NCBI RefSeq assembly: GCF_036250755.1
Contig: NZ_CP109583.1
Location: 1,426,001-1,490,000 of the forward strand
Source: Streptomyces uncialis
GTDB taxonomy: Bacteria > Actinomycetota > Actinomycetes > Streptomycetales > Streptomycetaceae
Length of the DNA: 64,000 nucleotides
Direction of reading: 5' to 3'
Shown here piece after piece: positions 14,703 through 28,790 of the stretch (its first letter is position 1; each line of letters starts with the position of its first letter). Below the pieces are notes generated by a model, which was not told the origin of the DNA, searched no databases, and worked only from the letters and a program-made list of their open reading frames with translations. A program made the translations under genes and the position numbers.

Positions 14703-16415
14703 TCAGCCGCGCAGCGCGGAGGCGAAGATCCCCGGCAGGGCCGACCAGCGGGGCGCGGCGGCGAAGCCGCTGAGCAGCCGTCCGGTGGTCGCGGCGGTCC
14801 GGTTGGTGACGAACCACGGCGGCTTCGGGGACAGTGACGGTTCGCCGTGCAGGAGCGAGCGGGGGGCGGGGCGGAACGGCCCGCGTACCACCGTGCGTTC
14901 CGGACCGTCGAGCAGCAGGGCGTTGTGGACCACGCCGATCCCGCTCTGCACATCGTCGACCGTGTGCCCGGGGAAGGCGCCCCAGCTCGCGGTGGCGGTC
15001 AGATAGCCGACGCCGGTCCAGGCGTTCACGGCGACCGTCCCGTAGCGCAGCCGGGCGATCGCCTCGTCCAGCGCGGGGCCGAGGGCGGCGAGGGTACGGG
15101 GGTGGGCGATGAGATTGACGCCGAGGGTTCCGGCGAACCGCTCGTTCGCGGTGGTGACCGCGTCGTCCAGGAAGGTGGCCGGGTCGCCGGGCAGTTCGAG
15201 GACGCCCAGCACCGGGGCGAAGTACTCGGTGGTCAGCGCCGGTCCCGGGTCCCGGGCGTCGAGGTCCTCGATCAGGACGCGGTCACCGATCCGGCGTGCT
15301 CCGGCGTACTCGGTGAGTGCCTGGGCGACCCGGTCGTCGCTGCCCGGGTAGTAGGCCGGGCGGGCCGGGGCGTTGGCGAGGGCGGCCCGCAGATGGGCCA
15401 GGAAGCGGTCCTTCTGCGCCCACCCGGAACTGAGGACGACGACCTGGCTCGCGACGCAGTTGTAGCCGCCGTTGTGGAGCCGTTGGGTGGCGACGTGTTC
15501 CGCCTGGAAGCGGAGATCGGCGTCGGACCAGTTCCCCGGGAGCACGAGGGTGGGTGAGACGCCGCCCAGTTCGCTGGTGACGGGCTTGTCGAGCAGCGGG
15601 GTGCCGGCGCGTTTGCGGTCGGCGCCCGCGGTGCCCGTGCCGAAGACGATCGCGTCATGGGTGACGGCGCTGCCGGTCATATGGACATGGCCGACGTCCG
15701 GGTGGTGGACGAGATGGGTGCCGATGTCGGCCCCGCCGGTCAGGATCCGGACCGCGCCGGCGTCGATCAGCGGGGCCAGTACCGCGCGGAAGACGGTGAG
15801 CAGTCCGTCGGTGACCGGGTTGAGCTTGAGGACGACGACCCGGTTGTGGGCGTAGAGCTCGTACAGCACGTCCAGGACCGGGATGGAGGTGATGTTCCCG
15901 GCGCCGAGGACGACACCGACGCCGCCGGTCTCCTTCGGCCTGCGCAGGGCGAGTCCGGCCCGGTCGCGGATCTCGTCGGTGGTGACGCCCGGGGGCATCC
16001 AGACATCGGCGCTGAACCCGCTGAGCAGCAGCCGGTCGTAGACACTGTGCGGCAGGACCCGTACGGCGACCCGTCCGCCGGGGGCCGGCCGGGTGGTGAA
16101 CGCGTCGACGGGGCTCCGTCCGGCCTCCAGTGCCCGGATGCTCGCGGCCAGCGCCCCGGTGCCGGTCAGTACGGGGTACGGGCCGGTGATCCACTCCTCG
16201 CCGGTCAGCGGGCTGTCGTGGGGGAGCCGTTTGTACGCGGCGGCGGCGCGTACCCAGGCCGCCGCGTGCTCACCGGCCGCGGTGTGGACGCGTTCCAGCA
16301 GTTCGCGGCGGCGGGCGAGTCCGAGGGCGGCCCAGGCGGACTCGCCCCGTACGAGGTCGGCGACGGCGCGGTCGGCCTCGGCCAGCCGGTCGGCGGCGGG
16401 TGCGGAGGTGGTCAT
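14703..16415 (-). CDS. NAD(P)-dependent aldehyde dehydrogenase family protein
   Basis: A 570-residue aldehyde dehydrogenase, longer than the usual 480-500. The catalytic Cys is in NGGYNCVASQVVVLSSG and the general-base Glu in TSELGGVSPTLVLPG; the cofactor region is GVGVVLGAGNITSIP. The extra length is mostly a C-terminal extension (about residues 510-570) with RGPFRPAPRSLLHG. The ATG at 16415 overlaps the stop of the GMC gene by four bases, so the two are coupled. It should oxidise the aldehyde produced by the GMC enzyme to an acid. The exact substrate is unknown. Confidence 0.9.
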   Translation of the reverse strand: MTTSAPAADRLAEADRAVADLVRGESAWAALGLARRRELLERVHTAAGEHAAAWVRAAAAYKRLPHDSPLTGEEWITGPYPVLTGTGALAASIRALEAGRSPVDAFTTRPAPGGRVAVRVLPHSVYDRLLLSGFSADVWMPPGVTTDEIRDRAGLALRRPKETGGVGVVLGAGNITSIPVLDVLYELYAHNRVVVLKLNPVTDGLLTVFRAVLAPLIDAGAVRILTGGADIGTHLVHHPDVGHVHMTGSAVTHDAIVFGTGTAGADRKRAGTPLLDKPVTSELGGVSPTLVLPGNWSDADLRFQAEHVATQRLHNGGYNCVASQVVVLSSGWAQKDRFLAHLRAALANAPARPAYYPGSDDRVAQALTEYAGARRIGDRVLIEDLDARDPGPALTTEYFAPVLGVLELPGDPATFLDDAVTTANERFAGTLGVNLIAHPRTLAALGPALDEAIARLRYGTVAVNAWTGVGYLTATASWGAFPGHTVDDVQSGIGVVHNALLLDGPERTVVRGPFRPAPRSLLHGEPSLSPKPPWFVTNRTAATTGRLLSGFAAAPRWSALPGIFASALRG

Positions 16416-17968
16416 CGCGCGGCTCCCTTGATGAGGTCGGCGGCCTTCTCGGCGGCCATGACGGTGGGCGCGTTGGTGTTGGCCCTGGGGACCGAGGGGA
16501 AGACGGAGGCGTCGACGACCCGCAGCCCCTCCACTCCGTGCACCCGCAGCCGGGGGTCGACGACGGGGCCGATGGCGCAGGTCGATGTCGGGTGGTAGAG
16601 CGTCATGCCCGAACGCTGGGCCCACGCGAGCAGATCGGCGTCCGAGTCGGAGTCCGGGACGTCGTAGGGGCCGGTGATGACCTCGGCGGCCGGGGCCTGG
16701 GCCGCGATGTCCAGGGCGATCCGGATTCCGGCGACGAGGGCGGCGCGGTCCTCGTCGGTGGTCAGGTAGTTGTGGATGATCCGGGGCGCGGCGTCCGGGC
16801 GGTCGGAGCGCAGGGTCACCCGGCCGCGGCTGGTCGGTGCGAGGACGCAGGGCCCGAAGGCGAAGCCGTGCTCGGTGACGGCGCCGAGTCCTTCCTGGTG
16901 GAAGAGGACGGGGGCCATATGGAATTGCAGGTCCGGGGCGGTGAGGCCGTCGCGGCTGTGGAAGAAGCCGCCCGCCTCGCCGACGTTCGAGGTGAGCGGG
17001 CCGCGTCCCTCGCCCTGGAGGAGGGCGGCGTTGTCCGGGCTCGCCGCCGTCATCAGGGACTCCGTGTCGGTGCGGAAGTTCAGCATCGTCATGTAGTGGT
17101 CCTGGAGTCCTTCGCCCACCGGCAGATCGGCCACCACCTCGATACCGAGGGCGGTGAGCGCGGCGGCGGGTCCGATCCCGGACAGCATCAGCAGTTTCGG
17201 GGACCCGTACGCCCCGGCCGACAGGATCACCTCGCGTCCGGCGGTGATCACCTCGGTCCCGCTGTCCCGGGTCACCTCCACCCCGGTGGCCCGGCCGTTC
17301 TCGATCACCACCCGGTCCGCGCGGGCCCCGGTCACCACCGTGAGGTTCGGCCGTTCCAGGGCCGGGTGGAGGAAGGCGACGGAGGTGCTGCACCGCAGGC
17401 CGTCGCGCTGGGTGAGCTGATAGGGGCCGACGCCGAGCTGGCTGCCGCCGTTGAAGTCGTCGTTGCGGGGGTGTCCCGCCTTGACCGCCGCCTCGACGAA
17501 CGAGGTGACCAGGGGATGGTTCGACCGGCTGTCGGAGACGGTCAGCGGACCGCCCGTGCCGTGGAAGGCGTCCGCGCCGCGCGTGTTGTCCTCGGAGCGG
17601 CGGAAGTAGGGCAGGACATCGTCGTAGGACCAGCCCTCGGCACCGGCCGCCGCCCAGCCGTCGTAGTCCGCGCGGTTGCCCCTGATGTAGATCATCGCGT
17701 TGATCGAGCTGCATCCGCCGAGCACCTTGCCGCGCGGCAGATAGGCGCGGCGCCCGCCGATGCCCGGTTCGGGCTCGGAGTCGAGGTCCCAGTCGAGGTC
17801 GCTCTTGAACAGCCTGCTGAAGGCCGCGGGCACATGGATGTCCTGGGCCGTGTCCGGACCGCCCGCCTCGATCAGCGCCACCCGTGTCCCGGGGTCCTCG
17901 GACAGCCGGGCGGCCAGGACACAGCCCGCTGATCCTGCCCCGACGACGACGTAGTCGTAGGTGTTCAT
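16412..17968 (-). CDS. GMC-family flavin alcohol oxidoreductase
   Basis: A 518-residue glucose-methanol-choline oxidoreductase. The FAD motif is VVVGAGSAGCVLAARLSED with the acidic LIEAGGP; GMC signature 1 is PRGKVLGGCSSINAMIYIRG; the second is AGAYGSPKLLMLSGIGP; catalytic His and Asn lie in TLYHPTSTCAIG and RANTNAPTVMAAEKAADLI. It looks closest to choline-dehydrogenase-like alcohol dehydrogenases. It is first in the operon with an aldehyde dehydrogenase and an acyl-CoA ligase: alcohol to aldehyde to acid to CoA ester. The divergent PucR regulator at 18164 probably controls it. Confidence 0.93.
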   Translation of the reverse strand: MNTYDYVVVGAGSAGCVLAARLSEDPGTRVALIEAGGPDTAQDIHVPAAFSRLFKSDLDWDLDSEPEPGIGGRRAYLPRGKVLGGCSSINAMIYIRGNRADYDGWAAAGAEGWSYDDVLPYFRRSEDNTRGADAFHGTGGPLTVSDSRSNHPLVTSFVEAAVKAGHPRNDDFNGGSQLGVGPYQLTQRDGLRCSTSVAFLHPALERPNLTVVTGARADRVVIENGRATGVEVTRDSGTEVITAGREVILSAGAYGSPKLLMLSGIGPAAALTALGIEVVADLPVGEGLQDHYMTMLNFRTDTESLMTAASPDNAALLQGEGRGPLTSNVGEAGGFFHSRDGLTAPDLQFHMAPVLFHQEGLGAVTEHGFAFGPCVLAPTSRGRVTLRSDRPDAAPRIIHNYLTTDEDRAALVAGIRIALDIAAQAPAAEVITGPYDVPDSDSDADLLAWAQRSGMTLYHPTSTCAIGPVVDPRLRVHGVEGLRVVDASVFPSVPRANTNAPTVMAAEKAADLIKGAAR

Positions 17969-18163: not shown

Positions 18164-19372
18164 ATGACGACAGCGCTGGGCGCCGACGCGCACATCACGG
18201 AGCTGGTCGGCCGGCTGCTCGCGTCGGTGGACCCGCTGACGGACGAGCTGACCGCGGAGATCCTCAGCGGTGAGCATCAGTACGTGGAGAGCACCCTGCT
18301 CAGCCATGAGCAGTTGCGGGACGCCGTGCACGACAATCTGCGGACGCTGCTCACCGCGCTCCAGGGGCGGCCGACCTCGCTGGACGCGCCCCGCGCGGCG
18401 GGCCGGCTGAAGGCCGAGCGGGGCATTCCGCTGGCCGCCCTGCTGCACGCCTTCCGGCTGGCCGGGCGGTTCATCTGGGACCGGCTGCTGGTGATGGCCG
18501 TGGCCGAGGACAGCACCACCGAGTTGCTGCACATGGCGTCCGGTATCTGGGTGGTGATCGACGAGTGCTCCGGCGCGGCGGCCGAGGCGTACCGGGCGTC
18601 CGTGGAGGAGCAGTCGCGCCGGGACGCGGCTGCCCGCAGCGTCATGCTCACCACCCTCCTCGACGGCAGCGCCGGGAACGGCGCGGGAGCCTGGGAGACC
18701 GTACGGGTGCTGGGGCTGGACCGGCAGGGCCCCTTCCTGGTGGTGTGCGCGGAGGTCAACGACGGCACCGAACCGCTGCCCGCCGTGGACGCCCGGCTGC
18801 GGTCCGCCGGGATCGGCTCGGAGTGGATCCAGCAGATCGGCAGCCGGGTCGGGCTGCTCGCCCTGCCGAACGAGCACGCGGCGACGACGGCCGCCGAGCA
18901 GCTGGCCCGGTCGGCCGTGTCCCGGGTCGGGGTCAGCCGCCCCTTCGCGTCCCCGGCGCAGGCGCCCAGCGCCTGGCGGGAGGCCCAGATGGCGGCCCAG
19001 TGCCTGCCGCCCGGCACCGATGGCGCCCATGTCTACGGCAGCTCACCGATCGCCCTGCTGGCGGCGGCCTCACCGGACATCGCGGCGGAGGTGACCCGTA
19101 CGGTGTTCGGGCGGCTGCGTGATCTGCCGGAGCCGGAGCAGACCCTGCTGCTGGACACCCTGGAGACCTGGTTCACGGCCGGCGGTTCGACCACACGCGC
19201 CGCCGAGCGGCTGCACTGCCACCGCAACACCGTGCTCTACCGGCTGAACCAGATCGCCGCCCTGACCGGCCGCCGCACCACGGACGCGGACTCCTCCGCC
19301 GAGCTGTACATCGCGCTGCGGGCGGTACGGCTGGCGGGCGGCACCGGGCCCCGGGCGGCGGGGAGGGCCTGA
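18164..19372 (+). CDS. PucR-family transcriptional regulator
   Basis: A 402-residue regulator with an N-terminal sensor-like helical domain ([20 protein letters not shown] region), a middle GGDEF-like/CdaR domain ([36 protein letters not shown]) and a C-terminal PucR helix-turn-helix ([22 protein letters not shown]). Proteins of this design usually activate nearby catabolic operons when an effector is present. It is divergent from the GMC-ALDH-ligase operon with 195 bp between the starts, so that operon is the likely target. Confidence 0.92.
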
Positions 19373-20092
19373 CGGGGACGTGACGACCGGATGCTCGCGG
19401 GAGGCGGGTGCGCGGTCCGGTGGGGGGCCGGTCGGCGCGGGTCGGCGCGGGTGCGGGAAGCGGGTCCGGTCGGCGCGGGTGCGGGACCCGGTGCGGGCGG
19501 TTTCCGGGGGTCGGGGACGGGCGGTTCCCGGGGGTCGGGGACGGGCGGTTCCCGGGGGTCGGGGACGGGCGGTTCCCGGGGGTCGGGGACGGCCGGTTCC
19601 CGTCGGGCCCTCCCCGGTTCCCGGGGGTCCTTGACCGGGCAACCAACTGCCGCGCGCGGCGGCCCGCCTCACCGGTCGGGCCCTGCCGTTCGACGTGAGC
19701 CCTCTCCGCTACCGGCCGCGAAAGCGTCGGCACAGCAGGAGCGGCCCCGCGCCGGGTGGGCCGGAGCCGGACGGGTACCGGCCATGGGCGGATGACCGAA
19801 GACTTGGGTTTGGGCGGGGGCTGCGCGGGCCACCGGATTCGCGGGCCGGGCGGCGGCGGGTGGGCGGGGCACTCCTGTGGCCGATGAGACGGGTGGCAGG
19901 CCGGGGAAATGTGCCCGGTTCACATGCGGACGGCGGCGACTGCCGCGAGCGGTCGAGAACTTGCCTGGGCCGGCGCCGGTCGCATTGTCCGGCGGGCGCG
20001 TTGCTCAGCTCCCGTCCGGACTGTCACCGTCGGTGGGCACCTTCGCCACACGCGGTGAGGGCCGTACCTCCTCCGAGGACAAGGAGTACTCC
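19373..20092. other. Non-coding region upstream of the RiPP cluster
   Basis: About 720 bp without a credible gene. It holds four 24-bp tandem copies (19498-19593) with a degenerate further copy near 19615. The right half must contain the promoter of the precursor gene, and a good ribosome binding site AAGGAG sits at 20081-20086. Confidence 0.6.
19498..19593. repeat. 24-bp tandem repeat, four copies
   Basis: Unit CGGTTCCCGGGGGTCGGGGA plus CGGG repeats four times with single-base changes in the first and last copies. Each unit contains a CCCGGG centre. Confidence 0.9.
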
Positions 20093-20185
20093 GTGGAAAT
20101 GGAAGAGGCACGTGAGCTGGACATCGAGGCGGTGGACGGGGAGGAACTCCCCGAGTTCGCGCTGATGGTCGACGTCCCGGACTGA
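20093..20185 (+). CDS. Putative RiPP precursor peptide
   Basis: A 30-residue peptide starting at GTG 20093, six bases after AAGGAG, an unusually good binding site for so short a gene. It has 12 acidic residues, one Arg, and no Cys, Ser or Thr. The first part (EEARELDIEAVDGEELPE) looks like a leader of alternating acidic and hydrophobic residues; the C-terminus FALMVDVPD is the likely core, with Asp27 and Asp30 as possible sites for a peptide beta-hydroxylase. It directly precedes HExxH, YcaO and methyltransferase genes. The precursor role is inferred from size, composition and context. An in-frame ATG two codons later is an alternative start. Confidence 0.72.
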   Translation: MEMEEARELDIEAVDGEELPEFALMVDVPD

Positions 20186-20201
20186 TCACCGGGTGAACGG
20201 C

Positions 20202-20228
20202 GGCCGGGCCGTGCTCGTCGGCCCGGCC
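20202..20228 (+). terminator. Hairpin between precursor and modification genes
   Basis: GGCCGGGCC and GGCCCGGCC form a perfect 9-bp stem with a 9-nt loop, 17 bp after the precursor stop. Partial termination or 3'-end protection here would make precursor mRNA more abundant than the enzyme mRNA, a common plan in RiPP operons. Confidence 0.6.
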
Positions 20229-20285
20229 TGCCGGTCGGGGCGGATCACGCGGATCGACCACTGGGACGGCTTGTCAGGAGGGTGT

Positions 20286-21320
20286 GTGCGGATCGAGCCG
20301 GACGCCGGGTCGGCCAGGAGCGACGAGGACCGGCTGGACGAGCTGGTGGCAGGCTGTCTCACCGCCGCCGGTTGCGCCGCCGGCACCTGGACACCTACCG
20401 ATCTGCGCTATCCCGGGCTGCACGCCACGGCACACCGGACGCAGCGGGCGCGGCGGACGGCCACACCGGCCCTGGAGCAGTCACGCACCGGGGCGCCTGC
20501 CGCCGCGGGAGCGGGAGGCGGGGCCGCCTCCGGCGCTCTGGAGCAGACCGAGGAGCGGGTGCGGGCGATGGTGCTCCGCGCCCGGCGCAGCCAGGCCCGT
20601 GCCCGGTCCGTGGAGAAACGCACCGGATGGGCCGTGGATCTGGCGCCGTCCGGCGAGGACCATCTGGCACAGAGCGTCCGGCGCGCGCTGCGGCAGGCTC
20701 CCGCCCCGGCCGACGGGTCCCGGGGCGGGCGTACGGCTGAGGTGACCGACTGGAGCGCGGAACAGCACGAGGTCTTCGAGGAGGGGTGCCGCATCCTCCA
20801 GGCCGCCTGGCCGCAGATGCTCGCGGAACTTCGGGTGACGTTGCGTCAGGTGGCGTTGCTGGGCGGCTGGGGGATCGACGGGTTCACCGATTTCACCGTG
20901 CACGGCGCTGTCTTCGTCAACAGTCGTCGACTGGGCGACCAGGGCACCGAAGGGCTCGCGGGCCGGTTCCGGCTCGTGGAGGCGCTGGTGCACGAGGGCA
21001 CCCACAACCGTTGCGACGCGGCCGCCGCCTCCGCCGCGTTCCTCCGGGCCTCCGGCGCGCAGGAGTTGGCGAGCACACCGCTGCGCGCCGATCCACGCCC
21101 ACTGGCCGGACTGTTCCAGCAGGTCGCGGTGCTGGCACGCAGTGTGCTGCTGTACCGGCGGCTGCCCGACGGACCCGCCGTACGTGACCGGCACGCCGTC
21201 CTGCTGGAGCAGGGCGGCCGGGGCGCGGCCACGCTGCGCGGCCGGGCCGGCGCCCTGACCGACGCCGGACGCGAGCTGTTGGACCAGGCCGAAGCGGTCT
21301 TCGCGACGGGAGCGCCATGA
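20286..21320 (+). CDS. HExxH-motif peptide-modifying enzyme (putative peptide beta-hydroxylase)
   Basis: A 344-residue member of the HExxH-motif RiPP-modification family (TIGR04267; NCBI names it, as I recall, aKG-HExxH-type peptide beta-hydroxylase). HEGTH lies at residues 236-240 in LVEALVHEGTHNRCDA. About 30 residues later comes LRADPRPLAGLFQQVAVLAR, matching the conserved DxRPLxGL/Q segment of the family. The N-terminal 150 residues are Ala/Arg-rich and poorly conserved. The GTG at 20286 is chosen for AGGAGG four bases upstream; the frame is open back to a GTG at 20193 with no good binding site. If the family chemistry holds, it hydroxylates a precursor residue, perhaps Asp. A zinc protease is less likely. 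Confidence 0.8.
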   Translation: MRIEPDAGSARSDEDRLDELVAGCLTAAGCAAGTWTPTDLRYPGLHATAHRTQRARRTATPALEQSRTGAPAAAGAGGGAASGALEQTEERVRAMVLRARRSQARARSVEKRTGWAVDLAPSGEDHLAQSVRRALRQAPAPADGSRGGRTAEVTDWSAEQHEVFEEGCRILQAAWPQMLAELRVTLRQVALLGGWGIDGFTDFTVHGAVFVNSRRLGDQGTEGLAGRFRLVEALVHEGTHNRCDAAAASAAFLRASGAQELASTPLRADPRPLAGLFQQVAVLARSVLLYRRLPDGPAVRDRHAVLLEQGGRGAATLRGRAGALTDAGRELLDQAEAVFATGAP

Positions 21321-22807
21321 GCGCGGTCGAACCCCTCCCCCGGTCCGCGGGGTCCGGCGGGTCCGCCCGTACCGCCGAGCCGGGGCCGTCCCCGGTCTGG
21401 CCGGTGCAGGTGGTGTCGCCGTTCCCCGACGCGCCGCGGTTCGTGCTCGGCCGGACCGCCGCGCGCAGCAGCGCCTTCACGCCGAACGACGCGGCAGGCG
21501 GGCGTACGGTCCTGATCGGGGCGGCCACCGGCACCGATCGCGCGGATGTGGCGCGGCGGGCCCGGGGCGAGTTGATGGAGCGTATGCACAACGTCCTGTC
21601 CGGGCACCGGGCGCGTGAGGGGGCCGTCGTCGCGTCGTACGCGTCGCTGCGGCGCCGGGGTACGGCCGCGCTGGATCCCTGTTCCTGGGCGGAGTTGCGC
21701 TCGCTCACGCATCTGCGGGAGGCGGCGATGCCGTGGGTCACGGGCACCTCGCTGACCGGCGGCGGTCAGGTGCTCGTCCCCGCGTGTGCGGTGTACCTGG
21801 CGCATCGCCCGCCCGCCGGATGTCCGGCGCCGCTGCGGCCCGGTTCCACCGGGCTCGCCGCGCATGACACCGCCGCGCGGGCCCGGGAGCACGCCGTGCT
21901 GGAGATACTCGAACGGGACCTGCTCTGGCACGCCTGGTACGCCGACGCGCCCCGGCGGTCGCCGCGAGGCCCCGCGCCGCTCGACGAGGAGCTTCGGCGG
22001 GTGCTCGTCGTGCTGGGGCTGCGGGAGCGGTGCCTGGTACTGCCCGGTCCCGGGGGTATCTCGTGCGTGGTGGCCTGTGTGCACATAGGTGACGGCACCC
22101 AGCAGAGTTTCGGGGCGCGTGCCACCTCCGGGGCGCTCGGCCCGGCCGCGGTGTCCGCCGTACGTGAGGCGCTGATGGTCCGCTGGAGCATGGGAACCGC
22201 GAGCGCCCGTACCGTGTGGGCCCGGATGCGGGAGCAAGCGCCGGACCGGCAGCCGAGCGGACCGCTGGAGCACGCCCTGCACACCTTCCACCGCCAGGAC
22301 AGTCTCACCGCACTGCTGCGCGGCGCCACCTGGGAGCCCTGGACGACGACGGCGCGTGGTCCCGTCGGGGAACCCCGGTCGACAGCACGCGCTTCCGCCG
22401 CCGACCCCTGGGCTACGGCGCACGATTCGTCCGAGGACCCCTGGATGACGGAGCCGGACTCCGCCGAAGACCCCCGGGTGACGACACGTGGTCTCGCCGG
22501 GGACCTCCGGGTGACGGCACGTGGTTCCTCCGGGAACCCTGGGGCTGCGGGGCACGATCCTGTCCGGGACCCCGGGGTGACAGCACCCGGCCCCGCCGAG
22601 GCCGCCCCGCGTCTGCTCGCCGAGCGGACCGGCGAGGACGTCGTCGAGGTCGACACCTCCGTCTCCGCGGCCGACGGCGGCCGGGCGGTGGTGGTGCGGG
22701 TGATCGCCCCCGGCGCCCGCCGGATGCCCGTCGACGAACCGGACCGGGCGGCCCTCGCCCTCCCCGCCGGGAACGCCCGGCGGCATCCTCCGCACCCCCT
22801 CGGCTGA
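21317..22807 (+). CDS. YcaO-domain protein with an inserted 11-residue repeat array
   Basis: A 496-residue stand-alone YcaO protein. ATP/Mg-binding motifs are RARGELMERMHNVLSG (residues 81-96) and REHAVLEILERDLLWHAWY (190-208), with STGLAAHDT just before the second. The C-terminus PPHPLG resembles the proline-rich end of YcaO enzymes that carry the active site there. Residues 354-430 hold seven degenerate 11-residue repeats ending DP (for example WATAHDSSEDP, WMTEPDSAEDP) in what should be the C-terminal part of the fold. No E1-like or TfuA partner is visible. YcaO enzymes activate the peptide backbone to form azolines, thioamides or amidines; the precursor lacks Cys, Ser and Thr, which argues against azolines. 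The ATG overlaps the HExxH stop. Confidence 0.85.
   Translation: MSAVEPLPRSAGSGGSARTAEPGPSPVWPVQVVSPFPDAPRFVLGRTAARSSAFTPNDAAGGRTVLIGAATGTDRADVARRARGELMERMHNVLSGHRAREGAVVASYASLRRRGTAALDPCSWAELRSLTHLREAAMPWVTGTSLTGGGQVLVPACAVYLAHRPPAGCPAPLRPGSTGLAAHDTAARAREHAVLEILERDLLWHAWYADAPRRSPRGPAPLDEELRRVLVVLGLRERCLVLPGPGGISCVVACVHIGDGTQQSFGARATSGALGPAAVSAVREALMVRWSMGTASARTVWARMREQAPDRQPSGPLEHALHTFHRQDSLTALLRGATWEPWTTTARGPVGEPRSTARASAADPWATAHDSSEDPWMTEPDSAEDPRVTTRGLAGDLRVTARGSSGNPGAAGHDPVRDPGVTAPGPAEAAPRLLAERTGEDVVEVDTSVSAADGGRAVVVRVIAPGARRMPVDEPDRAALALPAGNARRHPPHPLG
22376..22606. repeat. 33-bp in-frame repeat array inside the YcaO gene
   Basis: Seven 33-bp units code for 11-residue repeats (residues 354-430). 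GACCC followed by C/T GGG(T/C)GACG recurs at the unit boundary. Confidence 0.8.
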
Positions 22808-22860
22808 CCGCGGTCCGCACGCTCGTTCCCGTCCGACCTCCCTGGAGACTGGAGATCCCC

Positions 22861-23643
22861 ATGTCCGCGCCCGTGTCCCTTCAGGCCCCCGGCCCGGCGG
22901 AACCCGCCGGGGCCGCCTCGTACGCGCGGCGATTCGCCGACCGCTACGACACCTGGTTCGGCAGGAAGGGCCTGACGAACGACACCGTCGGCCTCCTGGC
23001 GCGGCTCGCCGGGTCCGGTACCGCGCTGGAACTGGGCGTGGGCACCGGCCGGATCGCGCTGCCGCTGGCGCGGCGCGGTGTCCGCGTGGAGGGCGTCGAC
23101 GCCTCACCGGAGATGGCGGCCCGGCTGGCGGCGCGGCCCGGCGGCGAGCACATCCCGGTGACCATCGGTGACTTCACCCGGCTGCCGTCGGACGGACGCA
23201 CGGTCGACGTGGCCTTCCTCGCCGGGGGGACGTTCTTCGAACTCCCCACCCAGGAGGACCAGTCGCGGTGCTTCCGCCATGCGGCGGCGCTGATCGGCGA
23301 CGACGGCGCGTTCGTGCTGGACGCGATCGTCCCCGAGGTGCTGATCGGCGCGGAATGGTCGCGCGGCCATGTGGTGCCCGAGACGGGCGAGGACCTGGTC
23401 GTGCTCTACCGCCGGTTCGACAGTGCCGCGCAGCGCTACCACTCGCACTACGCGATCACACCCGCCGACGGAAGCGGCAATGTGCACATCCATGTCGCCT
23501 TCCGCTACGCGGGCGCCGGTGAACTGGACCTGATGGCGAGGGCGGCCGGGCTGGAACTGCGCGAGCGGTACGGGAGTTGGGGCGGGGCGCCCTTCCGGGA
23601 CGGCTGCCCGTACCACGTGTCGGTCTACCGGCCCGCGCGCTGA
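22861..23643 (+). CDS. Class I SAM-dependent methyltransferase of the RiPP cluster
   Basis: A 260-residue methyltransferase. Motif I is ALELGVGTGRIALPLARRG, followed by the acidic VEGVDASPEM and motif II-like VDVAFLAGGTFFELP; the N-terminus YARRFADRYDTWFGRKG is typical of small-molecule and peptide methyltransferases. The ATG at 22861 follows GGAGA. It lies 53 bp after the YcaO gene in the same direction. The likely target is the modified peptide, such as a carboxylate, hydroxyl, amine or amide made by the other enzymes; the sequence does not decide which. Confidence 0.85.
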   Translation: MSAPVSLQAPGPAEPAGAASYARRFADRYDTWFGRKGLTNDTVGLLARLAGSGTALELGVGTGRIALPLARRGVRVEGVDASPEMAARLAARPGGEHIPVTIGDFTRLPSDGRTVDVAFLAGGTFFELPTQEDQSRCFRHAAALIGDDGAFVLDAIVPEVLIGAEWSRGHVVPETGEDLVVLYRRFDSAAQRYHSHYAITPADGSGNVHIHVAFRYAGAGELDLMARAAGLELRERYGSWGGAPFRDGCPYHVSVYRPAR

Positions 23644-23659
23644 CCGGGCGCCCCCGACC

Positions 23660-24073
23660 GTGCCTGACTGGACCGTGCCCGCCTGGGCCGCCCCCGTGCT
23701 GACCGCCGCCGGCGTGGTACTGCTCGCCGCTTTCGTCTTCTGGGGAGCACGGATCTCCCCGAACCGCCCGTTCTCCTGGGCCATGTACTCCGGCTCGTCC
23801 AAGGGCTTCCTGTGGTCGGACGACGGCAGCGTCACCGTCCTGCCGGTGCACCGGCTGCGGATCGCGCCGGGCGGCCACTTCCTCACCGTCCCGGAACTGC
23901 GCGCCCTCCTCGCCGACGGTGACTTCGAACTGCCGTTGAGAGGACTGATCATCGGCTCCGACGGCGGCTGGGAGGTGCGGTACGAACCTGCGGAGCACCG
24001 GCTGCGGCTGACCCGTCTGCCCGCCGGAGCCGAACTGCGCCTGCTGGCCGACGCCTTGCGCCCGGCCCCGTGA
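23660..24073 (+). CDS. Membrane-anchored protein of unknown function
   Basis: A 137-residue protein with one N-terminal membrane helix (AAPVLTAAGVVLLAAFVFWG) followed by RISPNRPFSWAMYSGSSKG and a soluble, probably external domain of about 90 residues with no motif I recognise. The GTG at 23660 lies 17 bp after the methyltransferase stop. Its own stop overlaps the next membrane gene by four bases, so the two probably form one complex. The combination looks like small companions of DoxX/HTTM-type membrane proteins. It could serve export, redox maturation or immunity. Confidence 0.6.
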   Translation: MPDWTVPAWAAPVLTAAGVVLLAAFVFWGARISPNRPFSWAMYSGSSKGFLWSDDGSVTVLPVHRLRIAPGGHFLTVPELRALLADGDFELPLRGLIIGSDGGWEVRYEPAEHRLRLTRLPAGAELRLLADALRPAP

Positions 24074-24918
24074 GCATCCCCGTACTCACCGCCGCGCTGC
24101 TGCTCGCCCTCGCCGTGGTCTGGCACGCCGCCGTCGTCCTGGCCGACGCCCGCGCCGTCACCCGGCACCATCCCGACGGCCGGGTCTACCGTCCCGGCCG
24201 CGGTTGGACCTCCGCCGCCGGGCTCGCCGCCCGCCGCCGCCTCTCGTACCTCATCGTCGTGGCGGGCGCGGTCCTGGCCGGTCTCTGCCTCGTCGCGGGG
24301 CTCGCCCCGGGGCGCGGCACGGCCATGGTCCTGGGCGGGTGGGCCGCCGTCGTCCTGGCGCTGCTGCTCGCCGACCGCCGCCATGGCCTCAACCGGTACA
24401 CCGCCGTGTGCCTGGCGCTGCTCGCGGGCTGTCTCGTGCTGGCGGGCGGCGCCTGGGCCCTCGGCGGCCGGACATGGACGGCGGCGGCCGGTCCGCCCGC
24501 TTCGTTCTTCGCCGCGCAGTTGTACCTGGTCGCCGGGGTACGCAAGCTGCGCTCACGGCACTTCATGGACGGCGGCGTCCTCATCGACAACCTCGCCTAC
24601 AACGCCGCCCAGGCCGCCGCGGGCAGCCATGACTTCGTACCCTTCCCGCGAACGGCCGCGCTGAGCACCCTGCTGGTCCACCCCGCGCCGCGCTCCGTCT
24701 GCCGTGCCGTCGCCGTCTGCGCGGCCGTCGGCGAAGTCCTCCTGGGACTCGCCGTCCTCGGCCTGCTCCCCCGGCCCGCCACCCTCACCCTGGCCCTCGT
24801 CCTGCACTCGGGATTCCTGCTGCTGAGCCCCCTGCGCATCGTGCCGTTCTCGGCGGCGTCGATGGGCCTGTGCGTCCTCGCCACGTCCCAGCCGCTGCTC
24901 CCGGGGCCCTTGGGCTGA
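24070..24918 (+). CDS. Polytopic membrane protein (DoxX/HTTM-like)
   Basis: A 282-residue integral membrane protein with about seven or eight predicted helices. The segment QLYLVAGVRKLRSRHFMDGG resembles the AGxxKLxS...W..G stretch of DoxX, MauE and HTTM membrane proteins, which often act in redox or vitamin-K-type chemistry, but the similarity is weak. The ATGAG-type overlap with the upstream gene shows translational coupling. It closes the RiPP operon. It could take part in peptide export, protection of the producer, or maturation at the membrane; no ABC transporter is present in the cluster. Confidence 0.65.
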   Translation: MSIPVLTAALLLALAVVWHAAVVLADARAVTRHHPDGRVYRPGRGWTSAAGLAARRRLSYLIVVAGAVLAGLCLVAGLAPGRGTAMVLGGWAAVVLALLLADRRHGLNRYTAVCLALLAGCLVLAGGAWALGGRTWTAAAGPPASFFAAQLYLVAGVRKLRSRHFMDGGVLIDNLAYNAAQAAAGSHDFVPFPRTAALSTLLVHPAPRSVCRAVAVCAAVGEVLLGLAVLGLLPRPATLTLALVLHSGFLLLSPLRIVPFSAASMGLCVLATSQPLLPGPLG

Positions 24919-25225
24919 CGGCCACGGGTCGGGCGGAAGTGCCAGGGACAGCTGTCGCCGTCGAAGCGGCGGGAAAGGGTGCGATGCGGCTCCCACGGCC
25001 CACCGGCCCACGAGGCCGTTCGCCGGACGCGGGACAGGACGCGGCGTCCCTTGTCAGCGGGGCCCGGAGCACACCCGGTGGGCGGAAGGGCGGCGGCCGT
25101 GCCGCCGGGGCAGCGGTCGGGGTATTCTGCGGGCAGCGTCGCGTGCCGGTGGCAGACCGTGTCAGGCATGGAGGCGTCCGACCGAAGGAGGCCGGCGTTG
25201 AACACGTCGCACCCTTCGTTCTCGC
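24919..25225. other. Intergenic region after the RiPP cluster
   Basis: No clear gene. It probably contains the end of the RiPP transcript and the promoter of the hemerythrin gene. A 12-codon frame (TTG 25198 to TGA 25233) has AAGGAGG in front and overlaps the hemerythrin start. Confidence 0.5.
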
Positions 25226-25696
25226 GTGTCTGAGCGCGAGACGACCAGGCTCGTGGCCTGGAGCAAAGAACTCCGTCAGGTGCACCACCGGCTGCGGCGA
25301 GCGCTGGAAGTGACCCGCGCGTCCCTCACTGACGGCACCACCGGTGAGGCCGCCACCCGTGAACTGCTGTTGTACTGCCGTGGTTTCTGCGCGGCTCTCG
25401 ACAGCCATCACAAGGGCGAGGACCGCACCCTGTTCCCGGCCATCGCGGCCGCGCATCCGGAGCTGCGCCCGGTACTGCGTTCGCTGGAGCAGGACCATTC
25501 GATGATCGCCCACCTGCTGGGCGGCCTCCAGGCGGCAGTCGAACGGGCCGCGCCTCCCGAGGAACTCGATCTGCACCTCGAAGGCATCTCCGCGCTCATG
25601 GAGAACCACTTCCGTTACGAGGAACGGCAGTTGCTCACCGTGCTCGAAACCCTTGAGCTGACAGCCGCGCCCGGGGATGTGCTGGGCCCGCTGTGA
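25226..25696 (+). CDS. Hemerythrin domain-containing protein
   Basis: A 156-residue four-helix hemerythrin-like protein. Likely iron ligands are the His in QVHHRLRRAL, DSHHKGEDRTLFPAI, LEQDHSMIAHLLGG and LMENHFRYEERQLL. Such proteins bind a di-iron centre and sense or carry oxygen, NO or iron. The GTG at 25226 has no binding site of its own and may be reached by coupling from a very short upstream frame. It is 307 bp from the RiPP operon, so I treat it as separate. Confidence 0.85.
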   Translation: MSERETTRLVAWSKELRQVHHRLRRALEVTRASLTDGTTGEAATRELLLYCRGFCAALDSHHKGEDRTLFPAIAAAHPELRPVLRSLEQDHSMIAHLLGGLQAAVERAAPPEELDLHLEGISALMENHFRYEERQLLTVLETLELTAAPGDVLGPL

Positions 25697-25710
25697 TCCC
25701 GGACCGGACC

Positions 25711-25747
25711 GGTGGGGGCGATGGCCGTGACGGTCACCGCCCCCACC
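25711..25747. terminator. Terminator after the hemerythrin gene
   Basis: GGTGGGGGCG pairs with CGCCCCCACC, and after one mismatch the stem continues inward (TGGCCG/CGGTCA with a G-T pair) to a 3-nt loop. It starts 14 bp after the stop, between convergent genes. Confidence 0.8.
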
Positions 25748-25954
25748 AGTCGGTCGTCGCCGTCGCGCTCCGCCGGAGGCCGATCACTCGCTCCCCGGCC
25801 GCTTTCCCGGACGGGAGAGGGCGACGGCCCATGGTACGTTCCCGCTCCCCATGGCCCGGTCGTCCGGGCCGTCCGACCCGACGCCCCGTCAGCACAGGTT
25901 CCCCCGTCCGGCGACGGCTGAGCATGTGCGGCACGTGCGGCCCACGCGGCACGC

Positions 25955-26593
25955 TCACAGCGTTTCCGCGGCGGTCCCCAGTCCGAGGACGACCAGGATG
26001 CCGCCGGTCGCCCTCTCCAGCGCCGTGTTCACCCGGGGCCGGCGCAGCCAGCTCAGCAGACGGGCCGCGAAGACCGCCACCAGGATCAGCCAGCCGGCCG
26101 CGATCACGGCGTCGATGACGCCGAAGATCAGGGTCACGGAGAGCACGGAGGCGCCCTCGGGGAGGAACTGCGGTGCCACGGCGACGAAGAAGAGGCCGAC
26201 CTTGGGGTTGAGGAGGCAGCTGAGGAGCCCCTGCCGGAACGCCAGGAAGGTGGTGGGTGCGAGTCCCTCGGGCGGAGCGGCGGTGGTGTCCGCGCCGTTC
26301 GACGCGCTCCGGCGGTGTGCCCACAGGGCCTGCGCGCCCAGCAGGACGAGATAGGCCGCGCCCGCCATCCGTACGACGGCGAACGCGGCGTCCCAGCGGT
26401 GGAGCGCGGCGGCCAGCCCCACGGCGGCGGCGACCGCCCAGACGAGGGAACCGACCGCAGCGCCCAGCGCGGTGGCGATCCCCGGGAGTCTGCCGCCACG
26501 CACGCAGTTGCGCAGCACCAGCAGGGTGTCCGGTCCGGGCACCACCGTCACCAGCAGGGCGAAGAGAGCGAAGCTCGCGAAGGCTGTGAGCAC
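25955..26593 (-). CDS. LysE-family amino-acid/metabolite exporter
   Basis: A 212-residue inner-membrane exporter with six predicted helices. The LysE/RhtB signature is TVVPGPDTLLVLRNCVRGGRL near the N-terminus, and FRQGLLSCLLNPKVGLFFVA follows in the middle. RhtB-type members export amino acids such as homoserine, threonine or leucine; the substrate here is unknown. It is a single gene reading left, and the start ATG at 26593 begins directly with the first helix. Confidence 0.93.
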   Translation of the reverse strand: MLTAFASFALFALLVTVVPGPDTLLVLRNCVRGGRLPGIATALGAAVGSLVWAVAAAVGLAAALHRWDAAFAVVRMAGAAYLVLLGAQALWAHRRSASNGADTTAAPPEGLAPTTFLAFRQGLLSCLLNPKVGLFFVAVAPQFLPEGASVLSVTLIFGVIDAVIAAGWLILVAVFAARLLSWLRRPRVNTALERATGGILVVLGLGTAAETL

Positions 26594-26885: not shown

Positions 26886-28415
26886 TCAGCGCTGTTGGCC
26901 GCCACAGGTGCCCTCGACCGTGCGTCCGGTACGGAAGAAGGTGATCGCCTTGTCGGCGCAGGGCGATGAGGGCAGGGTCGCGTGCCCGTCGTCCAGGATG
27001 GTGAGCAGGGCGCCTCCGGTGGCGTCCCTGGCCCGTTCGGCCCATACGTGGGGAGTGACGTCCTCGTAGAGGTGGCCGGAGAGCTGGAGCGCGCTCTTGC
27101 CGTACGCGGGCTTGGCGGCGGGCATCTTGTACGGCCACTTCGCGCACCAGGGGCTGAAGTGCTTCCCTCCCGTCAAGGGATCGGCCTCCCGACGGGCCTC
27201 GCGGGCCGCCCACAGTTCACCGAAACCGCGGCTCGCGGGGGCGGTGTTGCAGAGGATCGCGTTGTACTGGAGTGAGTTGAAGCGGCTGCGCGGATTGCTC
27301 AGCCCGAGAGGACGTACCGGCGCCGGTGCGGCGGTTTCCGCCCGGGGCGCCGGTGGCGTCGGAGGCGTGCCGCCGTCGCGCACCGCGACCAGGCTCTTCG
27401 CCGCGTCGGCCCACTCCTCCTGGGGGCGGTAGAGCTGCTCGATCACCCAGTTCCCGTCCAGGCGTACCCCGCCACCGGTGCGCGGCTTCCGCTCCAGCTC
27501 ACTGCGCAGATCGCCCAGCCGGCCGCGGACGGTGGACTCGTCGGCGCCCAGGTGGTGCTCGGCGTCGCGCTGTGCCAGCCAGGCGAGGAAGGGCGCGGTG
27601 CCGCGGTTACCGACCGCCTCCGTCTCGCCGTCCATCGTGGGCCAGTGGACCGTCGGGGGCATCACCGAGTCCAGCCACACGCGTTTCGTGTGGCGGTCGA
27701 ACAGGGAACGGTAGGCCATTCCGATGGTGGTGCCGAAGGAGGCGCCGTAGAAGTTGATCTTCTCCGCGCCAAGTGCGGCCCGGAGCCGGTCGATGTCCCG
27801 GGCGGCGTTCTCCGGGGTGATCTGTCGTACGAACTCGGGATCGACGGCCGCACAGCGGTTGTTGAACTCGGCCTGCTGGTCGAAATCGGCCTTCTTGAAC
27901 TTCTTCTCCGGCGCCGTCGGTGCCGGTTCCGTCCTCGGATTCTCGCCGCAGTCGACGTGGTCGCTGTATCCGGTGCCCCGGACGTCCAACGCGACGAGAT
28001 CGTGGTCGGTGTTCAGCGTGGCGAGTCCGCGTCGTGCCATCGCAGCCGAGTCGGTGATGTTGAACAGCCCCGGCCCGCCGAGGTGGGACACGATGGGCGC
28101 CTCGCGCGACTTCCCCTCCGTGGCCTTGACACGGCTCACCGCGATCTTGATCTTCCGGCCCTCCGGCTTTGCGTAGTCCACCGGTACGGTCAGCTCGGCG
28201 CACTCGGTGCGGGTGTCGTTCTCGATCGGCCAGTCCACCGCCGCGGTCGAGCACAGCTGCCACTGGAGTCCAGCCCTGGCGGGATTCCCAGGGTCCTGCG
28301 CGGCGGCGAGGCCGGTGCTCGCCTGCGCCCCGGCGAGCACCATCGCCGAGATGGCGAGGGCGCGACGGCGCGCGACCCTGACGGGGCCGGGCTGTTCACT
28401 GCGGTGATCGGTCAT
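26886..28415 (-). CDS. Secreted alpha/beta-hydrolase, tripeptidyl-aminopeptidase (TAP/SlpD) family
   Basis: About 509 residues. The N-terminus RVARRRALAISAMVLAGAQ is a twin-arginine-like signal. The nucleophile elbow is YGASFGTTIG, preceded by DLVALDVRGTGYSDHVDCG, and the charge-relay His is in ILDDGHATLP within the C-terminal TAP-like domain, which also carries CADKAITFF. Streptomyces homologues remove tripeptides or mycelium-associated peptides. The ATG at 28415 is used although its binding site is poor; a TTG at 28424 with GGAGG nine bases upstream is a reasonable alternative. Confidence 0.9.
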   Translation of the reverse strand: MTDHRSEQPGPVRVARRRALAISAMVLAGAQASTGLAAAQDPGNPARAGLQWQLCSTAAVDWPIENDTRTECAELTVPVDYAKPEGRKIKIAVSRVKATEGKSREAPIVSHLGGPGLFNITDSAAMARRGLATLNTDHDLVALDVRGTGYSDHVDCGENPRTEPAPTAPEKKFKKADFDQQAEFNNRCAAVDPEFVRQITPENAARDIDRLRAALGAEKINFYGASFGTTIGMAYRSLFDRHTKRVWLDSVMPPTVHWPTMDGETEAVGNRGTAPFLAWLAQRDAEHHLGADESTVRGRLGDLRSELERKPRTGGGVRLDGNWVIEQLYRPQEEWADAAKSLVAVRDGGTPPTPPAPRAETAAPAPVRPLGLSNPRSRFNSLQYNAILCNTAPASRGFGELWAAREARREADPLTGGKHFSPWCAKWPYKMPAAKPAYGKSALQLSGHLYEDVTPHVWAERARDATGGALLTILDDGHATLPSSPCADKAITFFRTGRTVEGTCGGQQR

Positions 28416-28790
28416 CGGTGACAAGAGAGGAAGCCTCCGTGTGAGGGGATGACGGAAAGATCCACGGCGTCCGCGGACACGACCACCTTGGACAGCACAC
28501 GCATCCACCACGCACGGATACGGCCGCAGCCGCCCATCCGTTCTGTATCACCAACGCAACGGCGCACTCGCGCCGTTGAGCGACCGGTCGCCTACAGTTC
28601 CGTGCTCGTACCGGACCTGCGTGAGTGCCGCGGTGGGGCACCCGAGGGCGCCGCGATGTGGTGCAGCTACTTCTTCCCCGACGACCAGGTCCACCTCAAC
28701 GACATCCACGACCGGAGCACCCGCGCCGCACGCCAGTTCTGACGGCTGTTGCAGCGCGAACGGGCGGCGGGGTGACGTTCGGCGTTCCGG
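28416..28790. other. Intergenic region upstream of the TAP-family gene
   Basis: No gene I can support. A short frame starting ATG 28654 (MWCSYFFPDDQVHLNDIHD, 28 residues, stop at 28740) reads like protein and may be a gene remnant or a small protein; I do not recognise it. Confidence 0.35.

Follow-up and report, generated by a model that had tools for sequence, protein, structure and literature searches.

Within a 64,000-nucleotide stretch of the Streptomyces uncialis genome (hereafter the window), six open reading frames (ORFs) at positions 20093-24918, all on the plus strand, most likely represent a new family of ribosomally synthesized and post-translationally modified peptide (RiPP) clusters; their products are a 30-residue peptide followed by proteins of the HExxH and YcaO kinds, a methyltransferase and two membrane proteins. 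We put at roughly three in four the probability that this is a dedicated RiPP cluster, in which the HExxH enzyme would oxidise the core of the peptide, the YcaO enzyme would activate a backbone amide and the methyltransferase would methylate an amine. That the 30-residue peptide is the substrate of a RiPP cluster appears very likely, and oxidation of its core by the HExxH enzyme, taken separately, is probable, while use of the newly made hydroxyl by the YcaO enzyme is put forward tentatively. The family as such is well supported by sequence comparison, from which its chemistry is deduced. An earlier sequence-based proposal (the original prediction) had placed six unidirectional ORFs here and read them as a novel class or subclass of RiPP that would combine hydroxylation with backbone amide chemistry. 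The arrangement was borne out, and the class reading fits the conservation of the peptide, the co-occurrence of the HExxH and YcaO genes and their fusions, with chemistry and product as predicted properties.

Genome contigs were scanned using 20 aligned HExxH proteins, which yielded 29 loci. HExxH, YcaO and methyltransferase genes are found together in 26 of these, and the same 26 hold a short peptide with a shared motif; a conserved small precursor beside peptide-modifying enzymes, as expected of RiPP clusters across genomes, is hence present in 26 of 29 loci and additionally in two genomes with split contigs. The original prediction had staked itself on exactly these points, a short peptide conserved in homologous clusters and HExxH and YcaO genes mostly kept together, and both were recovered. 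Four named actinobacterial families are represented among the loci, and the nearest relative of the window is another Streptomyces uncialis locus (the three enzymes, concatenated, are 99% identical). Counts over 26 loci omit L033, a distant Flavobacteriaceae protein (30% identity) without the gene set, as well as L025 and L031, where HExxH lacks a YcaO gene within the flanks. In the genomes of the latter two, YcaO is located on another contig (L044 and L045) directly behind a motif peptide; the L045 contig also carries the methyltransferase, and that of L044 ends at YcaO. The gene order HExxH, YcaO, methyltransferase is kept in 24 of the 26 loci, and in the other two, L010 and L014, YcaO and methyltransferase come first, with the peptide-HExxH pair some 3 kb downstream of them.

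The precursor gene (20093..20185, plus strand; 28 residues instead of 30 if ATG 20099 is the start) carries the conserved C-terminal motif EELPEFALMVDVPD, and an AAGGAG sequence precedes GTG 20093 or ATG 20099, in agreement with the strong ribosome binding site that had been predicted. One short ORF in each of the 26 loci carries the motif ELP[ED][FLY][AG]LM[VI]D[VILF][PG]. Its twelve columns (n = 26) read E24/D2, L26, P26, E23/D3, L14/F7/Y5, A25/G1, L26, M26, V16/I10, D26, V12/I10/L3/F1 and P25/G1, and codon differences over 325 pairs amount to 1,211 synonymous versus 741 non-synonymous, both counts being conditional on the search expression, which fixes some positions. Independently of that expression, tblastn gave a precursor match in the same 26 loci. 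A nine-residue pattern, run in six frames over the 463,766 bases of the 29 loci, returned 26 matches, one per locus in 26 loci and all on the strand of the enzymes, and in the source genome (9.26 Mb) the motif pattern occurs once (zero for a reversed-pattern control). The precursors measure about 24-34 residues, lengths that depend on our choices of start. We infer a leader in the acidic N-terminus and a core in the ALM[VI]D[VI]P segment. Ser, Thr and Cys are absent from the 12-residue motif in all 26 peptides, and ordinary azolines are therefore impossible there, so the YcaO enzyme must use another nucleophile. Ser or Cys occurs downstream of the motif in some peptides, in a variable tail (D, DDD, FED, S, SC, DVDGE and others).

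The second gene (20286..21320, plus strand) encodes a putative aKG-HExxH-type peptide oxygenase of 344 residues. Its start is most likely GTG 20286, replacing 20193 of the original prediction, as judged from gene-predictor starts of the homologues: 18 of 19 aligned homologues begin there (consensus MRVxPD) and one begins two residues later, with GGAGGG just upstream. Congruent with its proposed TIGR04267-type nature, the protein scores 57.1 bits (cut-off 40) and contains the anticipated HEGTH and DPRPLAGL segments, both conserved in homologues; HEG[TA]H is present in all 26 loci. It has the ChlH fold and is also a close fold match of SjiH (22ob), a name absent among the literature matches listed. 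According to excerpts of the source (PMC12636437), as for all papers cited here, aKG-HExxH enzymes hydroxylate beta carbons (Gln and Asn; His and Asp for ChlH) and can cut at small residues.

The stand-alone YcaO (21317..22807, plus strand; 496 residues) reaches 96.7 bits with PF02624 (gathering score 25.7) and displays the conserved blocks EL.ER, E.lERdl, FGAR...EALMVRWS and PHP.G, ending in PHPLG, with PHP[LF]G kept in 26 of 26 loci. A repetitive insert of about 90 residues (residues ~340-425; window 22348-22599, 1.9 copies of a 132-base unit) is not conserved in the wider alignment. No sequence relative in the PDB was detected by phmmer at E 0.1. The best NCBIfam model, the SagD-type TIGR03604, scores 72.1 bits with a cut-off of 219.25, and models of the RiPP recognition element (RRE), E1/ocin-ThiF and TfuA have no match among the six operon ORFs, in line with the predicted lack of E1 and TfuA. 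The features of an azoline-forming YcaO (a thiazole/oxazole-modified microcin cyclodehydratase), namely a sufficient TIGR03604 score, an E1/ocin-ThiF partner and Ser, Thr or Cys in the conserved core, are thus not found, nor is the YcaO-TfuA pair of thioamide formation. Three more YcaO genes are present elsewhere in the source genome (C1 3572908, 674027 and 8236147). HExxH-YcaO fusions were observed in 10 database proteins among 108 rows, with one more containing a partial HExxH part, and the DNA of L006 and L007 shows such a fusion as a single open frame, suggesting that the two steps are linked. Pairwise distances of HExxH, YcaO and methyltransferase show correlations of 0.90-0.91 across 27 rows, a level that none of 2000 permutations reached.

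The third enzyme (22861..23643, plus strand; 260 residues) belongs to the class I S-adenosylmethionine methyltransferases, as had been predicted, an assignment we amend to amine N-methyltransferase-like. Its nearest solved structures by sequence are CcbJ (3.6e-33), YunM (1.9e-22) and the cypemycin N-terminal methyltransferase CypM (8.3e-15), all from pathways other than that of the window. CcbJ methylates an amine, and the relatives together suggest an amine product. The best NCBIfam model, the daptide methyltransferase NF041820, is matched at 49 bits, below the cut-off of 175.

How these enzymes may cooperate can be outlined as follows. The HExxH enzyme would hydroxylate the core, and the YcaO enzyme would, with ATP, activate the neighboring backbone amide. 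The nucleophile would most likely be the fresh hydroxyl, yielding an oxazoline, or else an amine, yielding an amidine. After removal of the leader, by a protease encoded elsewhere or through cutting by the HExxH enzyme itself, the methyltransferase would methylate the freed amine. An HTTM-like protein and its 137-residue partner would contribute a membrane step in the sub-family of the window (export, immunity or further modification), whereas other sub-families would employ P450, glycosyltransferase, PhyH or sulfotransferase genes in place of the membrane pair. Considering that the fusions suggest linked steps, hydroxylation followed by cyclization is our leading idea, and it has a precedent in daptide YcaOs, whose nucleophile comes from an earlier modification (PMC12338566). 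In its fullest form, which we regard as somewhat doubtful, the cell would make its own cyclization handle: a hydroxyl placed by the HExxH enzyme on Asp, Val/Ile, Leu or Met of a core free of Ser, Thr and Cys, where the YcaO enzyme, sometimes fused, would close an oxazoline at a residue beyond the genetic code. Enzymes of the sub-families would then methylate, glycosylate, oxidise or sulfate the product, with a VKGC-like membrane protein acting in the sub-family of the window.

Several observations weigh against this picture. The loci were sought by HExxH patterns, and the co-occurrence consequently holds for this HExxH clade and not for all TIGR04267 proteins, and shared host ancestry is partly behind the correlated enzyme distances. 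The operon has no RRE, E1/ocin-ThiF or TfuA match that would account for substrate recognition by the YcaO enzyme, and the PHP[LF]G end of this enzyme is short of a full PxPxP. Moreover, part of the decoration genes around the loci may serve neighboring pathways, and the glycosyltransferases may act on carboxylates or other acceptors.

Among the alternatives, an amidine- or thioamide-forming YcaO working independently of the HExxH enzyme, with the hydroxyl serving only glycosylation, sulfation or binding, holds up best, although we consider it unlikely. The amidine of streptamidine requires a stand-alone actinobacterial YcaO (PMC8442711), daptide YcaOs use amines (PMC12338566), and of the 26 loci, 16 have glycosyltransferase genes nearby and 9 have sulfotransferase genes, all of which this scenario would accommodate. 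Thioamides would however call for TfuA, which the six ORFs lack, and the HExxH-YcaO fusions speak for coupled steps.

Less probable still, we find, is that the main role of the HExxH enzyme is to cleave the peptide between [FLY] and [AG], oxidatively or hydrolytically, in place of a leader protease, so that the YcaO enzyme forms an N-terminal amidine and the methyltransferase acts on the freed amine. Directly after the proposed cut, every one of the 26 motifs has a small residue (Ala in 25, Gly in one), the six ORFs include no protease gene, and the relatives of the methyltransferase comprise amine methyltransferases. PosC and PflC cut oxidatively at ARMD via alpha-hydroxylation of Ala, PosC cleaving at Ala and partly at Gly, not at Gln, Ser or Val, and PflC also hydrolyses (PMC12636437). 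The motif of the window has A-x-M in common with ARMD, but this likeness is weak, since PosC tolerates loss of Arg, Met and Asp individually; further, hydrolysis by PflC was seen solely with truncated, leaderless peptides (PMC12636437), and an oxidative cut leaves a keto end rather than an amine.

It is most improbable that the short peptide is instead a regulator or leader-type ORF and that the enzymes modify another substrate: it is short and very acidic, precedes the operon and is followed by a stem-loop, but its amino-acid motif is kept across enzymes only ~40% identical to those of the window, it stays with HExxH in L010 and L014 and with YcaO in L044 and L045, where HExxH is on another contig, and peptides are the substrates of those YcaO and aKG-HExxH enzymes already known from RiPP clusters.

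Returning to the operon of the proposed RiPP cluster, the gap between the precursor and HExxH genes (20186..20285, plus strand) measures 100 nt with the HExxH start placed at GTG 20286. The hairpin predicted there exists as a strong GC-rich stem (-52.9 kcal/mol), a possible attenuator, yet its z-score of -1.20 renders it unremarkable for the composition of the gap and not beyond chance. In the 26 relatives, 39-414 nt separate the peptide stop from the aligned HExxH part, an overestimate wherever the alignment begins inside the gene. Both predicted 4-base overlaps are present, ATGA at 21317-21320 (HExxH/YcaO) and GTGA at 24070-24073 (137-residue/282-residue genes), and the methyltransferase gene is separated by 53 nt from YcaO and by 16 nt from the gene that follows. 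Rfam at gathering thresholds gave zero matches in window 19000-26000, no sigma-70-like promoter was found, and the single terminator-like site is at chance level. Upstream, at window 19494-19602, a GC-rich 24-base tandem repeat comprises 4.5 copies (97% match).

The last two genes, both on the plus strand, encode a 137-residue protein of no known family (23660..24073), with one hydrophobic helix and the conserved motifs [PS]F[SA]W[GA]MYS and G[LV]I[IV]GSxGxW, and a multi-spanning membrane protein of 282 residues (24070..24918). The latter is possibly HTTM-like, in which case its fold would resemble the membrane part of vitamin K-dependent carboxylase; PF05090 (HTTM/VKGC) has no sequence match among the 28 members of its family scanned, and the PDB holds no sequence relative of this family at E 10. 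We rejected an SdpB-type HTTM identity, as TIGR04033 matches another site of the genome rather than the 282-residue gene and profile comparison with the HTTM protein at that site was not significant. That protein (PF05090; TIGR04033 below cut-off) lies at L034, C1 near 4784501, with a partner gene just upstream, an arrangement that we take to be reminiscent of SdpA/SdpB pairs. A relative of the 282-residue protein, 47% identical, occurs in the myxobacterium Cystobacter ferrugineus.

Accessory genes were counted by tblastn (E 1e-15) over the 29 loci, with names from domain search except for an ABC gene named from its sequence, and point to at least three decoration sub-families. The 137- and 282-residue genes co-occur in 7 loci. 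P450 genes are found in 11, including L015 and L027, within one 12-row clade; L016 ends at a contig edge, making its missing P450 uninformative. A second methyltransferase and PhyH characterize six (L010, L014, L018, L023, L029 and L030), with sulfotransferase, glycosyltransferase and epimerase genes nearby. Epimerase genes were detected at 14 loci, sulfotransferases of two types at 8 and 6, DMFA2-like and aldo-keto reductase genes at 5 each and UDP-glucose dehydrogenase at 4. The predicted absence of an ABC transporter holds for the operon of the window, but not throughout the family: an exporter-like gene accompanies 4 of the 29 loci, one of them L031, and hence 3 of the 26. On the three-enzyme tree, membrane pair (8 rows including the window) and P450 (9 rows as labelled) each require one change relative to the other group, a count that omits 10 rows belonging to neither. 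L011, outside the clade of the window, has its membrane pair about 5 kb off on the other strand.

A Pfam scan of a selection of flanking ORFs identified upstream an AMP-ligase, an aldehyde dehydrogenase and a GMC oxidoreductase (16412-17956), on the other strand and followed by a PucR-type regulator, and downstream hemerythrin, LysE, TAP-like hydrolase (26886-28511, other strand), PNPOx, glyoxalase and WYL-regulator genes. About 18 kb upstream, a thermolysin-type metallopeptidase with a P-domain is encoded at 598-2637 on the other strand. We see no reason to include any of these genes, the peptidase among them, in the cluster.

YcaO enzymes of RiPP clusters mostly target Ser, Thr or Cys or else rely on a special partner. 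A motif free of these residues, together with a YcaO and a sometimes-fused oxygenase, thus offers a convenient system for asking if a YcaO can draw on a hydroxyl installed after translation. Four host families and at least three decoration sub-families suggest that the family comprises a considerable number of unknown small peptides that may bear sugars and sulfate groups, and the motif offers a precise genome-mining handle for precursors of ~24-34 residues, a size that gene callers often miss; in the streptamidine paper's own family, precursor annotation stands at 78 of 231 (PMC8442711). Within the open-licence literature, subscription papers and supplements being outside this scope, no paper on HExxH, YcaO and methyltransferase in one cluster was found. 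For the precursor motif no paper appeared among the matches listed, which were swamped by unrelated words and leave absence unproven. Since the streptamidine study surveyed 1,514 stand-alone actinobacterial YcaOs, the family may sit unnamed in its supplement (PMC8442711).

Could the cluster be a known RiPP family (streptamidine-type, daptide, thioamitide or azol(in)e peptide) whose gene set has diverged? The best NCBIfam models, of a daptide methyltransferase and a SagD-type YcaO, would hint at this, but both scores fall far under their cut-offs, leading us to reject daptide and SagD-type membership, and the operon did not turn up the partner genes that define these families, leaving such an assignment highly improbable. 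Streptamidine-type (ami) clusters likewise place a stand-alone actinobacterial YcaO beside a short peptide that is not rich in Ser, Thr or Cys. As far as the excerpts describe them, they have FecBCDE, an ami-type hydrolase, a flavin dehydrogenase and paired ABC genes, whereas the window has HExxH and an amine-type methyltransferase, and ALV is conserved between their two motifs as opposed to ALM here (PMC8442711). That identity was rejected, as these partner genes are absent from the six operon ORFs and the selection of neighbors scanned. ChlH, BipH/BpmH and PflC/PosC belong to the same enzyme family as the HExxH protein, but in the excerpted text their partners are radical SAM or MNIO enzymes, not YcaO (PMC12636437, PMC12707348). 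Daptides with DapY differ in substrate motif and in their oxidative-decarboxylation and transamination genes, absent from the operon of the window, and yet they likewise direct a methyltransferase and a YcaO at one peptide, with the YcaO nucleophile arising from an earlier modification (PMC12338566).

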